A stretch of 35,179 nt of DNA from an uncultured Bacteroidales bacterium (GTDB lineage: Bacteria; Bacteroidota; Bacteroidia; Bacteroidales; Paludibacteraceae): the NCBI GenBank assembly GCA_947167395.1, contig CAMVHW010000004.1, positions 1 to 35,179 of the forward strand, in the 5' to 3' direction. The notes below the pieces were generated by a model, which was not told the origin of the DNA, ran no database searches, and saw only the letters and a program-made list of their open reading frames with translations. The number at the start of each line of letters is the position of its first letter. Position 1 is the first letter of the stretch. Position numbers and translations under genes: made by a program. Of the stretch, positions 1 through 22,225 are shown piece after piece.

Positions 1-3000
1 GTTCTTACCCACTACCTGCCAACGATAGCCCGTAAAACGATAGCCTCCGTTAAACTGTTCATTAAGCAAGGCAATGACGTGATCCCATTGCTGTTCCATT
101 ATCCACGACGGGTATTTGAGCGTGAAATCGGCTTCGTGGAACACATATCCGCAACTACCGCTATGGAATGCTATACGGAAACGATAAATATCGGGACGAG
201 TATAATTAGTGCCTGTATGAGCCGGTATAGGAATACGGATATCGGAAGAGAAAGGTATGTTGTTTTGGTCAACAAAGCCGCGTTGGTATGCCTTGTCGTC
301 AAGGAAGCGCAAGGAATAACTATCAGGCGGGGCACCTGTAAAGTAAGTTTTCAGTACCAGTTCCTCAGCATCGGCACAATCGCTGCTAACCTCAATAGAG
401 AGAACACGTGTGGAGTCGAACACTTGCAGGTCAAGCACAGTAATCTCCGACCTGCCTACTTGCATATCTTTGAGAGTGTCGGTCATAAGGGTATTGCGAT
501 AATACCACCGGTTGCGGAAATATATGCTATCACCTCGACATATCTTATATGTGAGCGTGTCGTAAGTGGTAGGAATTATATTCAGTTGCAACCTATAAAC
601 CGAGTCTATACAGCCTTTCTGCAAGTCGTAGGTGAAGTCTTCATAATTACCTGATTGTAAGTATGGCTGATTGCGCCATATATATGGCAGGTCATAGTCG
701 GCAACATTGACTCTCAAGGCTTCGGCGTATGAGCGTTGGTTGAGCGTGAGGTTGAGCACAGTGAGCGAATCGCAGCCGAAACGATTAAGGTTATGTATGC
801 GGTGAGTACCCGGTGAGGAAACATACTTGTCTCCAAATCGTATGCTATCGCCTTGACAGATAGAGGCATATATAGTATCAAACGAGGGGAAGGCTGTATC
901 CACACGCACACGATAGACAGAGTCCAACCCAAAGCGTGTCCACTGTTCAATGCGATAATAACCGGCATCCTGTATGTCTGTTTGACCAAGATGCAGTTGC
1001 TCGTTAACGCAACGATAGATATGGTCTATCTCCGAGCATTTCTGCGTCAGCACATAGTGAGTGCGTATTATGCTATCACAACCGCAGGAAATAGATTTGA
1101 GCGTGTCGCTGATTATCTGTGCCTTGTAGTACAACTGTCCTTTATGTACAAACGGGAACTCGTCGGGACAAACCAATATGGTAGTGTCGGAATAATACAC
1201 TTCCTTGCCGTACAAGGTCAGTTCGTATATACTATCGCAACCTGCCGATGACACAAGACGGTCGTAATAGACACCCGAGTACTTGAAGACGGTGTCGTTT
1301 CTATGCCCACGCCATACATAACCCTCGTTGAGGCAGAAAGAGTCACGCTGTTGGATATAATAGGTCTGTCCCTTACGCACTATATAGTGCAGCACGCTAT
1401 CACAACCGGATATTTTAGAAGCCAATGTGTCATAATAATTGCCCGGCTTGTCTATAACCTCACCGCGAATACGTACCACATCGTCATTACATAGCGAAAT
1501 AGGTATGACTGTTTCTTTTATACGCGGATAGATAAGGAGGTGTGTCCATATAATACTATCGTAACCCAAAGGCGAGAGTATGGTGTCTTTGAATACGGTT
1601 GAAGTGCGGTACTCACGTCCGTGGTGTATATATGGGAAGTCGGGCGAGCCGTAACACATAGTAACCGTATCTTCGTGGAAATGCGGGTAAAGCATGTGCA
1701 AATGCAAACGAATAACGCTGTCACAACCGTTCACGGTCTTTCCTCTTAACACATAGGTACCCGGCAGGTGGAGACTGAGTGTATCGAAATGATAGGTCTC
1801 ACCTTCGATGATAGTATCGTACCTATCCACAGCAACAGTGGGGAAGGCATTGACCACATAACGCACCACACTATCGCAACCTATTGAATTAAGCAGTGTG
1901 TCATAGAACACGCACGGAGCCATATACTCTTTCTCACGGAAGAAATAGGGTTCGCCTTGACAAGTGGAAACATTGACAGAGATAACTTCCGATGCTGTAC
2001 CGCGATTGACTATATAGTGCAATATACTATCACAACCCGATATCTTGGACGACAATGTGTCATAGTAGTTTCCGGGCTCACTGACAGTACGACCATTAAT
2101 CCATATTATATCTTTATTGCACAGGATAACGGGTATCACCGTTTCTTCTATACGCGGATAGACGAGCAAGTGCGTCCATACGATACTGTCATAGCCCATC
2201 GGAGTGAGGAACGTGTCCTTAAAGAGGGTTGACTGACGATACTCGCGACCAAAATGTATGTAGGGGAAGTCAGGTGAGTCGTAGCACAGAGTAATGGTGT
2301 CCTCTCTGTAATAAGGACGTAGAACGTGCAAATGCATACGTACAATACTATCGCAGCCGCGAGAGGTCTTACCACGGTGAATATGAGTGCCTTCCGAGCG
2401 AATCAACTCACCGTCAAAATCGTAAGCCTGTCCTTCTATAATGGTGTCATAGCGGTCTATGCTTACCGAGGGGAAGGTATTAACCACAAAGCGCACCACG
2501 CTATCGCAACCAGCAGCATTGAGCAAAGTGTCGTTAATAACGCAGGGAGTCTTATACTCCTTATTACGGAAGAAATAAGGTTCGCCTTCGCAAGTGGATA
2601 TCTGTATCGTAGTCAATGGCGAAGGTATGCCGTAATTGACAACATAGTGCAATATACTATCGCAGCCTGTTATTTGGGACGATAATGTATCGTAATAATT
2701 ACCTGGATTATTGATACTCTGACCGTTAATCCATACCACATCGTTATTACACAGGGCAACGGGAATCACCGTTTCTTCTATACGCGGATAGACTACGAGG
2801 TGTGTCCATACTATGCTGTCATAGCCCATCGGGGTATGGAAAGTGTCCTTAAAGAGCGTTGACTGACGATACTCGCGACCAAAATGTATGTAGGGGAAGT
2901 CAGGTGAGTCGTAGCACAGAGTAATGGTGTCCTCACTGAAATAAGGACGAAGAACGTGCAAGTGCATACGCACTATGCTATCGCAGCCGTGAGAGGTCTT

Positions 3001-6000
3001 ACCACGGTGAATATGAGTACCTTCCGAGCGAATCAACTCGCCGTCAAAATCGTAAGACTGACCCTCTATAATAGTGTCATAGCGGTCTATGCTCACCGAA
3101 GGGAAGGTATTAACCACAAAGCGCACCACGCTGTCGCAACCCGCAACATTGAACAAAGTGTCGTTAATAACGCACGGGGTCTTATACTCCTTATTACGGA
3201 AGAAATAAGGTTCGCCTTCGCAAGTGGATACTTGTACTATGGTTAAAGGTGAAGGTGTGGCACGATTGACTATATAACGCACTATACTATCGCAGCCGTG
3301 AACAGAGGTCAGAGTATCGAAATAAGTGTATGAACGTCCGCTGCACACCGTAAGCATCTCCGTTACTATATATGCCGAATCGACATAGAGTTGCAGGTTA
3401 TAGATAGAGTCTGCCCCCTGAACGGTGGTATAACTCTGATTATAAAGCCCCGTTTCCGACAATGGTCTGCCAAACCACATATATGGCAGGTCGTCTGAAC
3501 ATACGTGTACCGTGTCGAAATATCGGTAGCCCTCTCTAACCGACAGATGCAAGCAATAGATTATACTATCGCAGTCAGCCAACACTTGAGAGCGAATCGT
3601 GTCGTAATAAGTACCATTATTAGTATATTCCTTACCTCGCCAAGTATATGAACTGCCGAAATTGATTTCCTCCCACTGATTGACAAAAGAGGTTTCCTCA
3701 AAAGTGAGAACAAGCATTACTATACTGTCACAACCAGACGAAGCATACAAGGTGTCATAATAAACGCCCGACTTGGTCAGTTCCTGTCCACGGAATGAAT
3801 AAGAGTCATCGTGGCATACTCGCACGTGTTTGGGCACAAGATATGAACTGACCACATTGAGGTGCAACTCGATTATGGAATCACAGCCGTGTATAGTACT
3901 CAGCCGCTCATAGAAGATATTAATGGTATCTAACTGCACCATATCCTCAAACACTTTTATTCCTCCCATAGTAAAGGGCAGGCGACTTGAACAGATAGTG
4001 GTGTCTATTCGTGTGCGAAGCGTATCGGCATTGACGATAACAAAGCGGTGAATTGTGTCGGGACCGACCTGATTACGATACTCGCCTATGGTGTCGTAAA
4101 CCACTCCGTCCACCTTTACCTCTCCTAACGGGCACAGATAAACGGTATCAGGTTCAGAGCATTTGGCAATAGTCAGTTGGAGAGTAAAGATACTGTCACA
4201 ACCTATTGAATTAACCAGCGTATCAGCCACTAAGGTGTCGCCCCAGAACTCTCTCTCGCGCCATAGGTATGGCAACGAATCGGAGCATAGAACCTTCTCC
4301 GTCATTTCGTTTTGCGACTCGCGAACCTCCAAGTCCAATATATAAATAACCGAGTCGCACTCAGCAAAGTTATCTCCCGAATAAGGCAAACGGTCATAAT
4401 AGCGATTAGCCATTTTCAGGCTCTTACCACGCCAGTCGTAAGTCTCGTTGGAGCATATCCAAGCCTTTTGGTAAATAGTATCTATGACACGCACATTAAC
4501 TATGGTGCGATATATACTGTCGCAACCGTCATTGGTTATGTACTTCTTCTCAAAAATACCGGATTCGGTTACGGTGTCGCCATAGATAACTATAAAGTCA
4601 CCAAGACATATATCGTGGTATTCGGTATGCTCAAAGACAGGTGTTACGTTAAGATTAAGACAACATATACTGTCGCAACCCTTGACAGTTAGTATTGAGT
4701 CATAATAAACGCCGGTGTCATAATAGTTTTTGCCGTGCCAGAGGTATGGTATATCGTTCTGACATATACGCACATTGATGCTATCCAATTTAGGTTTGCC
4801 CACCATCAATCGCAACTCGAACACACTGTCGCAACCATTAACAGTCGGCAATGTGTCAAAATACGAGCCTTCACGATTACAAGTCATTCCGCGCCATTCA
4901 TAGTAATCGCCTTCGCATATATACTTATCTTCCACATTATGATAGGTGGGATGGAAATGACTGACTACCTTGATTATAGAGTCGCAACCATACTGATTGA
5001 GAGTAGTGTCATAATAGACGGTAGGTATCACAAATACCCTATCACGATAGCGAATACTATCCCCCTGACAAGCATACAGGTGTAATTCGCTTGTCGTATT
5101 ACGGCAAAGAGTAAGTTGATAAACAGAGTCGCAACCGAATGCAGTCTGCAATGAGTCGTAGTAAATACCGGGTTCGCGCAACTCTCTGCCTCGCCAAGTA
5201 TAGGTATTCGTCCCCTGCAAAGAGCCGTATTCCTTAAACAAGTAGTTAGGCTCCACTTGCATTACGACAGTAATAATACTGTCGCAACCATTAACAGCAG
5301 GCACGGTGTCATAGAATGTTACCGGTGCAAAATAAGTCTTGCCTTTATATTGTATAGGTTCGTCTTCGCAAGTGCGCATAGTAAGAGTGGAACGCGGCAT
5401 AGTATTCTCCACATTGAGAATAATACGCACTATACTGTCGCAACCAGCAGCGGAAACAAGAGTGTCAATATAGATTCCTTTCTCTTTCAGTTCAACCCCG
5501 CCAAACCAATACGACTCACCGTAACAGAGATTGACGTTAAGCGTAGTGTAGCGAGGTGAGCCTACCGTCAGTGTCAGTTTAACCTGTTTCTCACAGCCGT
5601 GATCGGTTTGCGTTGACTGATAATAAACGCCCTCCTCGTATAATTTGCGGTCATAGAAAAGGAAAGTATCACCTTCGCATATAGTGGCAGTCTGCTCTTC
5701 TATTATGAAATGACTGTATGTTACCACCAAATGAACTATACTGTCACAACCATGAGAGGAAAGCAGCGTGTCGGTATATATACCCTGTTCGTCTATCGTC
5801 AGTTCACCGAACTTTATCGTTTCTCCCTCGCACAACTGCTTATACACCGTCTTTTCATAATCGTCATAAACCACCAAGTGTAAAGAGTATATACTATCAG
5901 CGTTAAGCACCGTCATATAAGGTATGTCATAATCGCCTGCATCGTTAAAGACGTGGTTCTGATAGGTATAAGGCATCTCGTGACGACAGAGTGCCACCGT

Positions 6001-6405
6001 GTCGAAGTGATGATAGGTAAAAGCCTCTCTTACATATAGTTCATATACCGAGTCGCAGCCCAAGACGGTATTGTAATACAGATGGTAAGTACCTGTTTTG
6101 TCATATACATCACCGTGCCATATCACAGGCTGACCGTCATATATAGTCAGCGTATCACGATAATAGTAAGACGGTGCTTCGTTTGCAACAATCCGATACA
6201 CGCTATCCAACTCGCCCGTTTCGGTATAAAGAGAATCGTAATAAACACCCTGCTTATCAATTGTTATTCCACGATAAACAATGGATTGAGTGGGACATAT
6301 ATTAACATACTCAACTATCAGTGTGTCATTAGCCTTCATTGGCAACGACAACGACGTGAATAGGCTTAATAATGCACAAGAAAGAATTATATAGAGTTTT
6401 TTCAT
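1..6405 (-). CDS. Giant secreted GCDS-module repeat protein (partial; C-terminus beyond the left edge)
   Basis: Reverse-complement reading from ATG at 6405 (MKKLYIILSCALLSLFTSLSLPMKANDTLIVEY...) stays open to base 1 in the frame p = 0 mod 3. Frame spot-checked at 6061, 5289, 4020, 3300, 1881, 777 and 60. About 35 modules ending in G-C-D-S-[IV]. The last residues in the window (YPSWIMEQQWDHVIALLNEQFNGGYRFTGYRWQVVGKN) resemble the region that precedes the C-terminal sorting domain in similar Bacteroidales surface proteins. Absent from the ORF track, probably because its stop lies outside the window. Confidence 0.93.
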   Translation of the reverse strand, partial: MKKLYIILSCALLSLFTSLSLPMKANDTLIVEYVNICPTQSIVYRGITIDKQGVYYDSLYTETGELDSVYRIVANEAPSYYYRDTLTIYDGQPVIWHGDVYDKTGTYHLYYNTVLGCDSVYELYVREAFTYHHFDTVALCRHEMPYTYQNHVFNDAGDYDIPYMTVLNADSIYSLHLVVYDDYEKTVYKQLCEGETIKFGELTIDEQGIYTDTLLSSHGCDSIVHLVVTYSHFIIEEQTATICEGDTFLFYDRKLYEEGVYYQSTQTDHGCEKQVKLTLTVGSPRYTTLNVNLCYGESYWFGGVELKEKGIYIDTLVSAAGCDSIVRIILNVENTMPRSTLTMRTCEDEPIQYKGKTYFAPVTFYDTVPAVNGCDSIITVVMQVEPNYLFKEYGSLQGTNTYTWRGRELREPGIYYDSLQTAFGCDSVYQLTLCRNTTSELHLYACQGDSIRYRDRVFVIPTVYYDTTLNQYGCDSIIKVVSHFHPTYHNVEDKYICEGDYYEWRGMTCNREGSYFDTLPTVNGCDSVFELRLMVGKPKLDSINVRICQNDIPYLWHGKNYYDTGVYYDSILTVKGCDSICCLNLNVTPVFEHTEYHDICLGDFIVIYGDTVTESGIFEKKYITNDGCDSIYRTIVNVRVIDTIYQKAWICSNETYDWRGKSLKMANRYYDRLPYSGDNFAECDSVIYILDLEVRESQNEMTEKVLCSDSLPYLWREREFWGDTLVADTLVNSIGCDSIFTLQLTIAKCSEPDTVYLCPLGEVKVDGVVYDTIGEYRNQVGPDTIHRFVIVNADTLRTRIDTTICSSRLPFTMGGIKVFEDMVQLDTINIFYERLSTIHGCDSIIELHLNVVSSYLVPKHVRVCHDDSYSFRGQELTKSGVYYDTLYASSGCDSIVMLVLTFEETSFVNQWEEINFGSSYTWRGKEYTNNGTYYDTIRSQVLADCDSIIYCLHLSVREGYRYFDTVHVCSDDLPYMWFGRPLSETGLYNQSYTTVQGADSIYNLQLYVDSAYIVTEMLTVCSGRSYTYFDTLTSVHGCDSIVRYIVNRATPSPLTIVQVSTCEGEPYFFRNKEYKTPCVINDTLFNVAGCDSVVRFVVNTFPSVSIDRYDTIIEGQSYDFDGELIRSEGTHIHRGKTSHGCDSIVRMHLHVLRPYFSEDTITLCYDSPDFPYIHFGREYRQSTLFKDTFHTPMGYDSIVWTHLVVYPRIEETVIPVALCNNDVVWINGQSINNPGNYYDTLSSQITGCDSILHYVVNYGIPSPLTTIQISTCEGEPYFFRNKEYKTPCVINDTLLNAAGCDSVVRFVVNTFPSVSIDRYDTIIEGQAYDFDGELIRSEGTHIHRGKTSRGCDSIVRMHLHVLRPYYREDTITLCYDSPDFPYIHFGREYRQSTLFKDTFLTPMGYDSIVWTHLLVYPRIEETVIPVILCNKDIIWINGRTVSEPGNYYDTLSSKISGCDSILHYIVNRGTASEVISVNVSTCQGEPYFFREKEYMAPCVFYDTLLNSIGCDSVVRYVVNAFPTVAVDRYDTIIEGETYHFDTLSLHLPGTYVLRGKTVNGCDSVIRLHLHMLYPHFHEDTVTMCYGSPDFPYIHHGREYRTSTVFKDTILSPLGYDSIIWTHLLIYPRIKETVIPISLCNDDVVRIRGEVIDKPGNYYDTLASKISGCDSVLHYIVRKGQTYYIQQRDSFCLNEGYVWRGHRNDTVFKYSGVYYDRLVSSAGCDSIYELTLYGKEVYYSDTTILVCPDEFPFVHKGQLYYKAQIISDTLKSISCGCDSIIRTHYVLTQKCSEIDHIYRCVNEQLHLGQTDIQDAGYYRIEQWTRFGLDSVYRVRVDTAFPSFDTIYASICQGDSIRFGDKYVSSPGTHRIHNLNRFGCDSLTVLNLTLNQRSYAEALRVNVADYDLPYIWRNQPYLQSGNYEDFTYDLQKGCIDSVYRLQLNIIPTTYDTLTYKICRGDSIYFRNRWYYRNTLMTDTLKDMQVGRSEITVLDLQVFDSTRVLSIEVSSDCADAEELVLKTYFTGAPPDSYSLRFLDDKAYQRGFVDQNNIPFSSDIRIPIPAHTGTNYTRPDIYRFRIAFHSGSCGYVFHEADFTLKYPSWIMEQQWDHVIALLNEQFNGGYRFTGYRWQVVGKN
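1351..3240 (-). repeat. Three tandem 630-nt (210-aa) higher-order repeats inside the giant CDS: 3240-2611, 2610-1981, 1980-1351
   Basis: In-frame copies begin IVQVSTCEGEPYFF (3240), TIQISTCEGEPYFF (2610) and SVNVSTCQGEPYFF (1980). 'gactgacgatactcgcgaccaaaatgtatgtaggggaagtcaggtgagtcgtagcacagagtaatggtgtcctc' occurs at 2231 and 2861, with a diverged equivalent at 1601. Shadow ORFs recur with the same 630 offset (2326/2956 and 1518/2148). Confidence 0.95.
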
Positions 6406-6433: not shown

Positions 6434-7384
6434 TTATTCGTAACACTGACAACCTCTATGCCAAGTACCCGTAATACCTGTTCGGCTGCCGCCAAGCATA
6501 TAAGTAAATTTAACACCTATCAAGAAAGGTGCAACACGCTGATTGATTCCATCATTGGAATAGTAGTAAGGTCGCACCTGCGGCTCTACGGCACTGACAC
6601 TGCCGGTCAAGTCTGTCTTGAAGGTTACGTGTTCCGCAGTCTGACCCTTGGGAACAACCGAATTGACACTATACTCAAAATAAAAACCTACTTTGAGCAA
6701 CTGACATGTCTGACTGCGAGTACGCACATTGGACAACACGTCATAGCCCAACTCACCTATCACAGCACCGTTAATAGCCATATTGACCGAATAATCGGCA
6801 GCAAAACTACCCGTCCCATAGCCTAACTCCTCATAATTGACCAAGCCCTGTTGATACTTTTCGGAGTAATCGCCGCTAAGAGAGAAAGTGCCGTTTGTGT
6901 GAACAGTGGAACCAACCGAACGAAAACCGACCTTCAAACCGCCGCCCACATAGAAACCGTTGTAATAATAACCTAACAGCAACGGAACTTCCAACTGGCG
7001 GAAACTAATTTGGTCTTTTTGTGAAAAATTATAGTTGAGTTTGGTTACGACACCATATATATCCTCACCCTGCAAAGGTTTAGGCGAGAAGTTGAGGCTC
7101 ACCGACGAGGACTGCATCGACATCTGTGCGCCCATACTCATCCAGAACTTACTGCGTCTGAACTCATATCCGGCACCTACCAATCCGCCCACATTGCCCA
7201 ATACATTCACATCGGCATTATGGGTGGCAATAGCCGAATAGCCCACCCCGCCCGACAGGTAGAAAAAGTGGTAGTTATCCTCATTACCTTTGCGCCGTTG
7301 AGCATACACAGGCTCAATACAAGCAAAAAAGGCAAATATAGTTATCAACAAAAAAGGTACTTTTCTCATATTTCGGTTGTTCAT
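6434..7384 (-). CDS. Outer-membrane beta-barrel protein
   Basis: 316 aa; signal peptide (VPFLLITIFAFFACIEPVYAQ); alternating amphipathic strands with Gly/aromatic pattern (FYLSGGVGYSA, VGGLVGAGYEFRRSKFWMSMGAQM, FLIGVKFTYML). Lies 28 bp upstream of the giant CDS, same strand. Confidence 0.75.
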   Translation of the reverse strand: MNNRNMRKVPFLLITIFAFFACIEPVYAQRRKGNEDNYHFFYLSGGVGYSAIATHNADVNVLGNVGGLVGAGYEFRRSKFWMSMGAQMSMQSSSVSLNFSPKPLQGEDIYGVVTKLNYNFSQKDQISFRQLEVPLLLGYYYNGFYVGGGLKVGFRSVGSTVHTNGTFSLSGDYSEKYQQGLVNYEELGYGTGSFAADYSVNMAINGAVIGELGYDVLSNVRTRSQTCQLLKVGFYFEYSVNSVVPKGQTAEHVTFKTDLTGSVSAVEPQVRPYYYSNDGINQRVAPFLIGVKFTYMLGGSRTGITGTWHRGCQCYE

Positions 7385-18960: not shown

Positions 18961-20577
18961 TTAATGATATAAGAAACGTTTGATACTCCTTTTGGGAGTT
19001 TTGTCAAATGCTTCTTTCATTATTTCCACATGATGCAATTTGCTATAATTAGGCAACATCTCGTTGATACGTTTCAGCAGGTCTTCCGCTGCGGCTTTGA
19101 GCGAGTCTTGCAATTTGACCTTCTCTTGGTCGGGGAAGATAAGAGCCACCAGTTTACCTTCCCTCTCCACTACAAGCGACTCCTCCACCAACGAGTCGTT
19201 ATTGATTCGACTTTCTATGTCTTCCGGATAGATATTTTGACCTGTCGAACCTAAAATCATTGTTTTCAGTCGTCCTTTGACAAAGATATTCTTTTTTCTG
19301 TCCAATGTACCGAGGTCGCCTGTACGGAACCAACCGTCACGAGTGAAAGCCGCTTGGGTGGCTTCCTCGTTCTTATAATAACCTATCATCAGATTGTCGC
19401 CTCTTACTTGCAACTCACCCACTCCGTTCTCATTGGGGTCAGCCACTCTCACTTCCATTCCCTTAACCGGCTTACCGCCTGAACGGGCCTTGAAGTTATG
19501 CACCATCTCACCACCGATAAGAGGTCCGCATTCGGTCATCCCATAACCTACCGACAAAGGGAAATGAACGTCCATCAGACAACGCTCAACATCCTTGTCT
19601 ATTGCCGCTCCGCCGCAGATAAAGTAACGCAGATGGCCACCAAAAGTCTTCTTCAAGTTATACTTTACCACAGCACGGATGATATTTCCCACAATAGGCA
19701 CGTTCCACCATATACGGATATTGCGTTTGGTTACCTTTGGAGCAATATGTTTCTTATAAATCTTCTCTATGACCAACGGCACTGTTACCACCAAATAGGG
19801 TTGGACATCTTGCAGTGCTTTGAGTAATATACTCGGCGTTGGAGTACGAGAGAGAAAATAGACGGTGCAACCCGAACAGAGAGGATAGAGCAATTCGCAC
19901 ACCTGACCATACATGTGCGCCAATGGTAACATAGAAACGATCTTCTCACCGGGAAGAGCAGGCAACGTTTCTTTACCGACCTCCACATTGTTGCTCAACG
20001 AGCGATTGGTAAGCATTACACCCTTAGGATTGCCCGTTGAACCTGATGTATAGTTAATAAGAACCAAATCGTCGAGGTTGTACGTACAAAAGCCTTCAAA
20101 CTCATCTTCCGAGACAGGAGTATCGTTCCATTCTTCCCAAGTATGCCAAGCCTTTTCCGTTCCGTATAGAATAGAGAAATCTGAAAGAGAAACGATGGCT
20201 TCCATTTCGGGTAACTCTTCATTTTTCAGTTGTTCCCACACAAAAGGTCCGACAAAGAGCATACGCGAATCGGAATGTTGGAGCAAGCGGCTTATATCCT
20301 GTGCCACAAAGTCTTGCAGAATGCTTACGATAACACCTCTATATGCAGCAATAGCCAAATAAGCCACAGCCCAGTTGGCACAATTACGACCTGCAAGAGC
20401 CACCTTATCACCCGCCTTTATCCCCATACGCTCAAACAGCAAATCCAAATGACGGATTTGCTGTCCAAGTTGCCTGAATGTATAACTCTTTGCATCATCT
20501 CCCGAATAATCGACCAACGCGAGTTGATCGGGATAGTGCGCAATCATCGAATCCAAATAGGCCAAATAATGCTGCAT
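18961..20577 (-). CDS. AMP-dependent acyl-CoA synthetase/ligase (copy 2 of tandem pair)
   Basis: INYTSGSTGNPKGVML, GYGMTECGPL, GWFRTGDLG, KTPKRSIKRFLYH. The ORF track starts at 20646, but ATG at 20577 (MQHYLAYLDSMIAHYPDQLALVDY) avoids a 62-nt overlap and fits the family N-terminus. Confidence 0.9.
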   Translation of the reverse strand: MQHYLAYLDSMIAHYPDQLALVDYSGDDAKSYTFRQLGQQIRHLDLLFERMGIKAGDKVALAGRNCANWAVAYLAIAAYRGVIVSILQDFVAQDISRLLQHSDSRMLFVGPFVWEQLKNEELPEMEAIVSLSDFSILYGTEKAWHTWEEWNDTPVSEDEFEGFCTYNLDDLVLINYTSGSTGNPKGVMLTNRSLSNNVEVGKETLPALPGEKIVSMLPLAHMYGQVCELLYPLCSGCTVYFLSRTPTPSILLKALQDVQPYLVVTVPLVIEKIYKKHIAPKVTKRNIRIWWNVPIVGNIIRAVVKYNLKKTFGGHLRYFICGGAAIDKDVERCLMDVHFPLSVGYGMTECGPLIGGEMVHNFKARSGGKPVKGMEVRVADPNENGVGELQVRGDNLMIGYYKNEEATQAAFTRDGWFRTGDLGTLDRKKNIFVKGRLKTMILGSTGQNIYPEDIESRINNDSLVEESLVVEREGKLVALIFPDQEKVKLQDSLKAAAEDLLKRINEMLPNYSKLHHVEIMKEAFDKTPKRSIKRFLYH

Positions 20578-20584
20578 ATCAGTT

Positions 20585-22225
20585 TTATGAATATAAGAAG
20601 CGTTTGATAGACTTTTTCGGAGTCTTTTCAAACTCTTTGTCAACAATCTCTATATCTGCTATCTTGCTATATTGAGGCAAACGATTATTAGAGAGTTGCA
20701 TCCACTGCTTTTTCATCTCGTCCATCGTCTTGCCTGCGGTATCATAATCAGCGTCGGGGAACACCAGAGCCACCAACTTACCTTCACGAGACACCACTAC
20801 CGACTCTGCCACTCCTTCGTTGCTATTGACTATATTCTCTATCTCTTCCGGATAGATATTCTGTCCGCTGGGACCAAGAATCATATTCTTGCTTCTTCCT
20901 CGAATAAAAAGGTATCCGTCAGCGTCAACCACGCCCAAGTCGCCTGTTCTGAGCCAACCGTCTTTGGTAAAGACTGCCTTGGTTGCCTCCTCGTTCTTAT
21001 AGTAACCTATCATATTGGCTTCACCCTTAACCTGTATCTCACCCACAATGTTTTGCGGGTCGGTTGAGTCAATACGCAGATCCATACGGTCAACTATCTT
21101 ACCGCACGAATGTAACTTAAACTCCTGCCACGGCACGTAAGAGATGAGCGGACCGCACTCGGTCATACCATAACCTACAAGGAAGGGGAAGTTAATGTCT
21201 TTCAGGCATTGTTCCACTTCGCTATTGAGCGCAGCACCACCTATAATAAGGTGTTCAACCTTGCCGCCGAAAGCGTCAAGCAAACCTTGTTTAACTTTAT
21301 TGCGGATGATTCGACCCACAATAGGCATATTCCACATCAAACGTACAATAGGCTTCCTGACAATAGGACGCAGTTTCTTTTGATAGATCTTCTCTATAAT
21401 AAGCGGAACCATAAAGATAAGATATGGTTTACACTCTTTGAAAGCCTTCATCAGAGTGGGAGTAGCCATACGAGGAATATAATAAATATGTGTACCGCCT
21501 GCCACTTGATAGAGAAACTCAAAAGCCATACCGAACATGTGAGCCAAGGGCAAAAGCGAAACCATTGTCTTGCTCGGGTCGTTAGGGATATGCTCTACGC
21601 CAAAAGTTACGTTGGTACTCAATGAGCGATAGGTCAGCATAACGCCCTTGGGGCTGCTTGTGGTACCGGAAGTATAGTTAATCAGTGCCAACTCGTCCAG
21701 ATTGTCGGTATGATAATTGATGTCATCGGCAGTAAAACCGTTAGGATGAGCCTCCTCATACAACTTATCCATATTGGCTATGGCTTCGCGTATATCATCA
21801 TCGGCTGCATAGATAACGCTGAAATCCATATAACCTATAATGGCGCGCAGGTTAGGCATCTTCTCAGCCTTAACTTTCTTGGCGACCATAGGTCCGGCAA
21901 GCAGTATCTTGGCTTCGGAATGATTAACTAATTTCTCAATGTCCTCACCCGTAAAATCGGGTAATATACTTACACCGATAGCACGGTATGCCAATATGGA
22001 CAGATAACTGATTGCCCAGTTGCTGCTATTAACGCCGCAAAAAGCAATCTTATCACCGGGTTTAACGCCACAAGCCACGTAGGCAAGACGAAGTTTCTCC
22101 AATTGAATAGCAACTTCGCCGTATGTATAATTTACATTTTCCCCAAAGTCACTAAAAGCGGGACCATTCCAGTTGGTCTTCATTACCTTATTGAGATAGG
22201 TAAAGAAATGTTTTGTTTGTGTCAT
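20585..22225 (-). CDS. AMP-dependent acyl-CoA synthetase/ligase (copy 1 of tandem pair)
   Basis: 546 aa; INYTSGTTSSPKGVMLTYRSLS, GYGMTECGPLISY, GWLRTGDLG, KTPKKSIKRFLYS. Confidence 0.93.
   Translation of the reverse strand: MTQTKHFFTYLNKVMKTNWNGPAFSDFGENVNYTYGEVAIQLEKLRLAYVACGVKPGDKIAFCGVNSSNWAISYLSILAYRAIGVSILPDFTGEDIEKLVNHSEAKILLAGPMVAKKVKAEKMPNLRAIIGYMDFSVIYAADDDIREAIANMDKLYEEAHPNGFTADDINYHTDNLDELALINYTSGTTSSPKGVMLTYRSLSTNVTFGVEHIPNDPSKTMVSLLPLAHMFGMAFEFLYQVAGGTHIYYIPRMATPTLMKAFKECKPYLIFMVPLIIEKIYQKKLRPIVRKPIVRLMWNMPIVGRIIRNKVKQGLLDAFGGKVEHLIIGGAALNSEVEQCLKDINFPFLVGYGMTECGPLISYVPWQEFKLHSCGKIVDRMDLRIDSTDPQNIVGEIQVKGEANMIGYYKNEEATKAVFTKDGWLRTGDLGVVDADGYLFIRGRSKNMILGPSGQNIYPEEIENIVNSNEGVAESVVVSREGKLVALVFPDADYDTAGKTMDEMKKQWMQLSNNRLPQYSKIADIEIVDKEFEKTPKKSIKRFLYS

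Follow-up and report, generated by a model that had tools for sequence, protein, structure and literature searches.

The first 6405 nucleotides of the window, by which we mean the whole analyzed stretch of 35,179 nucleotides from an uncultured member of the Paludibacteraceae, encode on the minus strand a giant protein built of tandem modules. The gene next to it encodes a small outer-membrane β-barrel protein, whose C-terminal C-x-C tail is invariant among its relatives (Table 1). We propose, with moderate confidence in the proposal as a whole, that the giant is exported by the T9SS and that the barrel is its dedicated partner, coupled to PorK/GldK.

Table 1. Features of the giant gene and the neighboring barrel gene (aa positions refer to the respective protein)
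Feature	Position in window	Strand	Remarks
Giant modular surface protein	1..6405	-	2135 codons in the window, ∼125 more codons (3' end) on contig G000:C136
Probable signal peptide, aa 1-26 (MKKLYIILSCALLSLFTSLSLPMKA)	6328..6405	-	judged by eye
37 tandem GCDS modules, ∼52 aa each, aa 26-1980	466..6330	-	profile from the giant's own repeats
Three tandem 210-aa super-repeats, four modules each, aa 1049-1678	1372..3261	-	
Pre-C-terminal region, aa 1981-2135	1..465	-	common to other T9SS-sorted giants
Partner outer-membrane β-barrel protein, 316 aa	6434..7384	-	28 bp upstream of the giant, same strand
Invariant C-terminal tail H-x-G-C-x-C-Y, partner aa 309-315	6440..6460	-	

A giant reading frame at the start of the contig

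The host assembly is a 1.46-Mb draft (77% complete), and the window is the start of its contig G000:C4. Translation of the minus strand revealed a frame that begins with an ATG at 6405 and continues without a stop through base 1. At the local base composition, a stop-free run of 2135 codons has a chance of ∼10^-53. An ORF list that leaves out open-ended ORFs contains only 15 short ORFs (60-191 aa) between positions 1 and 6405. The giant is absent from it because its frame is 3'-open and the contig begins at base 1, that is, due to an artefact of the listing. An earlier note on this DNA had correctly described both the uninterrupted frame and the restriction of the ORF track to short ORFs. Its estimate of about 35 modules was slightly low; the modules themselves were recovered. 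The super-repeat units share protein identities of 87.6% and ∼65%. The pre-C-terminal region, which the note had likened to that of other large surface proteins, does align with T9SS-sorted giants from the same genome and genus. Searches against Pfam and NCBIfam gave no match for the in-window part of the giant.

We modeled four of the modules (aa 385-587) with AlphaFold. The model is confident (pLDDT 95.2) and contains five short strands per module; the modules are predicted to form a string of small β domains. The top two PDB entries identified by Foldseek for this string are fragments of GhpA, the grappling hook protein A found on the surface of the bacterium Aureispira (9flp, 9flw), the best match having an E value of 1.1e-6, a probability of 1.00, 16% identity, and a TM-score of 0.31. 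This likeness is one of fold only: when the PDB was searched by sequence, neither the module profile nor the complete giant found a credible relative, and GhpA was not matched by profile. Many modules contain two cysteines, near positions 13 and 41.

The probable 3' end carries a sorting domain

We searched the genome with a profile of the C-termini of relatives and found six places. One of them is the very end of contig C136, where a 5'-open piece of 118 codons is located. This piece is 63% identical over 118 aa to the C-terminus of the orthologue L099, with a score of 401 compared to only 59 and 52 against two paralogous giants of the same genome. An ftsB-like gene and then ruvC lie on its 3' side, just as they do in L099 and L083. 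L099 and the giant share 71% identity over 1925 aligned residues, and the only large differences are one 210-aa unit fewer and 124 extra C-terminal residues in L099. By comparison with this orthologue, the gap between C4 and C136 amounts to ∼7 codons. We infer from these data that the two contigs join and that the C136 piece is the missing end of the giant, which would then have a full length of about 2260 residues. Another giant also seems to be split over two contigs, at L015:1-1482 and L009:1-3690 (G000:C13, C113), which have near-identical ends (KIETVDRMDVCTQKLTGY).

The end of C136 is a Por_Secre_tail-type domain. It reaches 20.4 bits with TIGR04183, just below the cut-off of 23, and the close orthologue L082 scores 29.3 bits; of 20 family C-termini that were aligned, 19 match this model at E ≤ 0.1. 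The type B model TIGR04131 did not match any of the 20 family C-termini or C136. Provided that C136 belongs to the giant, its sorting domain looks like type A and not type B. The earlier note had proposed to look for such a domain beyond base 1; a TIGR04183-type domain with family-wide support is present on C136. With a C-terminal sorting domain of ∼70 residues, the giant resembles T9SS type A cargo (TIGR04183), but differs from it in that this protein of ∼37 modules has its own barrel partner gene. The C-termini of two GCDS proteins, encoded at L013 and L014 (G000:C68, C103), look different: in place of the long CTD, they have a short tail that seems to resemble the short CTDs of Prevotella intermedia.

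Secretion and gliding genes of the host genome

We searched the genome for one gene at a time. SprA/Sov (2514 bits), PorU (907 bits), PorV (384 bits), and PorK (488 bits) are present, and PorP (184 bits) and a PorL-like gene are located beside PorK. A PorG-like fragment with a CRTC tail is encoded apart from the giant locus. Together with the sorting domain, these genes lend good support to the T9SS export inferred in the earlier note, which had listed secretion genes to look for; of these, SprA/Sov, PorK, PorL, and PorU were found, and PorP, PorV, and the PorG fragment in addition. The giant is very likely displayed on the cell surface by this route: it would enter the periplasm by means of its signal peptide and cross the outer membrane through SprA/Sov by means of its C-terminal sorting domain, and the ∼37 small β modules would then be displayed as a string. 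The architecture suggests a role as an adhesin or fiber.

GldB scores 213 bits in the host genome, above the cut-off, which it also exceeds in most genus mates. The GldJ-like sequence of the host is an 82-aa C-terminal fragment at a contig end, for which GldJ is the best model (67 vs. 39 bits). Most genus mates encode, in addition to PorK, a distinct GldJ-like protein of ∼530-625 aa. One such full protein scored 348 bits with GldJ vs. 234 with GldK and did not reach the GldJ cut-off of 458. The reactive cysteine of PorK is kept and aligned within N-G-C-F, the published motif of Porphyromonas gingivalis PorK being R-G-C-F. To our knowledge, gliding has not been reported for these uncultured bacteria.

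The upstream gene encodes a barrel with a conserved C-x-C tail

The barrel gene upstream of the giant had been missed in the earlier note and is an addition to it. AlphaFold predicts a small barrel (mean pLDDT 87.8) with a tail modeled at low confidence (partly pLDDT <50). We counted eight long strands in this model by eye, which would place both ends, and with them the C-x-C tail, in the periplasm. A profile search of the PDB with the barrel gave no match, and the Foldseek matches were limited to generic barrels of low TM-score. H309, G311, C312, C314, and Y315 are invariant in 44 aligned relatives, and aa 309-315 average 88% conservation vs. 59% for the barrel. Membership in two known families was considered and rejected: the PorP/SprF model TIGR03519 matched one of the 44 members (E 0.036) and not P0002, and neither of the PorG models NF052316 and DUF6089 matched any of them.

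A scan of the collection with nine barrel relatives resulted in 56 loci, titled Paludibacteraceae, Candidatus Colicola, Bacteroidales, or Bacteroidia. The barrel relatives are mostly from Paludibacteraceae, and the stated sources are mostly herbivore gut or rumen. One locus contains no barrel ORF by the method used and in another one the barrel runs off the contig, leaving 54 complete barrels, all with distinct sequences. Each of these 54 ends with H-x-G-C-x-C-Y and is followed by an ORF on the same strand, at a spacing of -59 to +429 bp. This ORF contains at least eight strict GCDS motifs in 52 cases; the other two ORFs extend for 133 and 270 codons before the contig ends. C-x(1,2)-C motifs within the last 30 residues are enriched in proteins of 200-650 aa encoded next to CTD proteins: 33 of 47 such neighbors have one, vs. 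35 of the 302 other ORFs in the loci. The p value of 9e-17 overstates the enrichment, since the loci were chosen via giants and this barrel and the sequences are related; conversely, the background of 302 ORFs includes some barrels whose giant is lost at the locus end. In searches of the literature on GCDS repeats and on gliding in Paludibacteraceae, we found no description of this pair. Taken together, we have good reason to regard the barrel as the dedicated partner of the giant, to which it would bind.

L012:624-9242 (G000:C11) of the same genome contains a 2872-aa relative with an IgGFc-binding domain near its N-terminus (PF17517, E 9e-39). The protein encoded downstream of it has 367 aa and contains a CRLC motif close to its end. 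The two CTD proteins at L010:800-6580 (G000:C7) lack strict GCDS motifs and precede a fusion of a barrel with an OmpA domain, an arrangement that recalls wall-anchored PorE-type operons. The giants of L048, L089, and L127 apparently lie in two frames, due either to errors in repeat assembly or to real frameshifts.

Possible coupling to the PorK/GldK track

In Flavobacterium johnsoniae, Cys343 of GldK is disulfide-bonded by the C-x-C tails of SprF and of PorG, and in the case of SprF this bond couples SprB, an adhesin, to the moving track (PMC12635249). The locus described here resembles SprB/SprF in combining a giant repetitive T9SS protein with an adjacent outer-membrane gene whose product carries a C-x-C tail (PMC12635249, PMC9143113), and the PorK/GldK cysteine is conserved here as well. 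Since both the tail and the PorK cysteine are kept, disulfide chemistry like that of SprF and PorG is possible. By this analogy, the periplasmic tail of the partner would form a disulfide with PorK/GldK, a bond to which we give slightly better than even chances, and the disulfide would connect either the giant itself or its export with the moving track. Attachment to the track is plausible; that the giant is actually carried along it is conceivable but rather doubtful. SprF is a PorP-family barrel of the 14-stranded FadL type, whereas the partner is small and does not belong to this family, and the signal of SprB is type B, whereas that of the giant is type A-like. The partner may therefore work like SprF without being SprF, the known carrier families being excluded by profile.

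GldB above the cut-off and the GldJ-like C-terminal fragment in the host genome were counted in favor of the proposal. Against it count the position of the partner outside the PorP/SprF and PorG profiles, the GldJ-like proteins of the genus, which remain below the cut-off and of which the host has only a fragment, and the NGCF of PorK in place of RGCF. The type A-like signal argues against carriage on the track, since SprB of F. johnsoniae, if given a type A domain, was released or attached to the surface rather than to the track (PMC12618676). The presence of PorV and PorU also counts against the track, because it leaves the ordinary type A route open to the giant: PorV would collect it, PorU would cut off the sorting domain and link the giant to lipopolysaccharide, and the barrel would be coexpressed without any tethering. 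This explanation agrees with the TIGR04183-type domain, with both genes, and with the published type A route (PMC12618676). But it does not account for the strict pairing with a twin-cysteine barrel and its invariant tail, and the two GCDS proteins with a different, short tail point to a second signal class in this genome. We consider this explanation rather unlikely.

Alternatively, the partner could be a PorG-like force link dedicated to the giant, with the bond between C-x-C and PorK helping to push the very long giant out of the translocon, after which it would be static. PorG is likewise an eight-stranded barrel with a C-x-C tail and has been proposed to push cargo out (PMC12635249). The partner, modeled as a small barrel and read as eight-stranded, shares with PorG its size, a cysteine-bearing periplasmic tail, and the T9SS context. 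However, the PorG model gave no match in the partner family, the partner gene adjoins the giant, and a separate PorG-like fragment is encoded elsewhere in the genome. We know of no case of a dedicated PorG for a single cargo, and this alternative appears quite improbable.

T9SS giants are known, and gut Bacteroidales have been proposed to have mostly lost gliding. The giant-barrel pair makes it testable whether gut Bacteroidales still move adhesins. The track-borne giants published so far depend on PorP/SprF carriers, and the signal of SprB is of type B. The strict pairing of giants with a small barrel whose C-x-C tail is invariant, seen in dozens of gut genomes, suggests that cargo may be coupled to the motor track by disulfides more widely than published. 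A tentative reading, which we hold to be about as doubtful as carriage of this giant, is that within the gut and rumen Bacteroidales one lineage carries its giant adhesins, with type A-like signals, on the moving PorK/GldK/GldJ track via a new family of small C-x-C barrels. This would represent a second way of coupling an adhesin to the motor, and powered surface movement would then occur in gut commensals regarded as non-gliding.

Elsewhere in the window, two adjacent, overlapping acyl-CoA ligase-like genes are located on the minus strand at 18961-22225.
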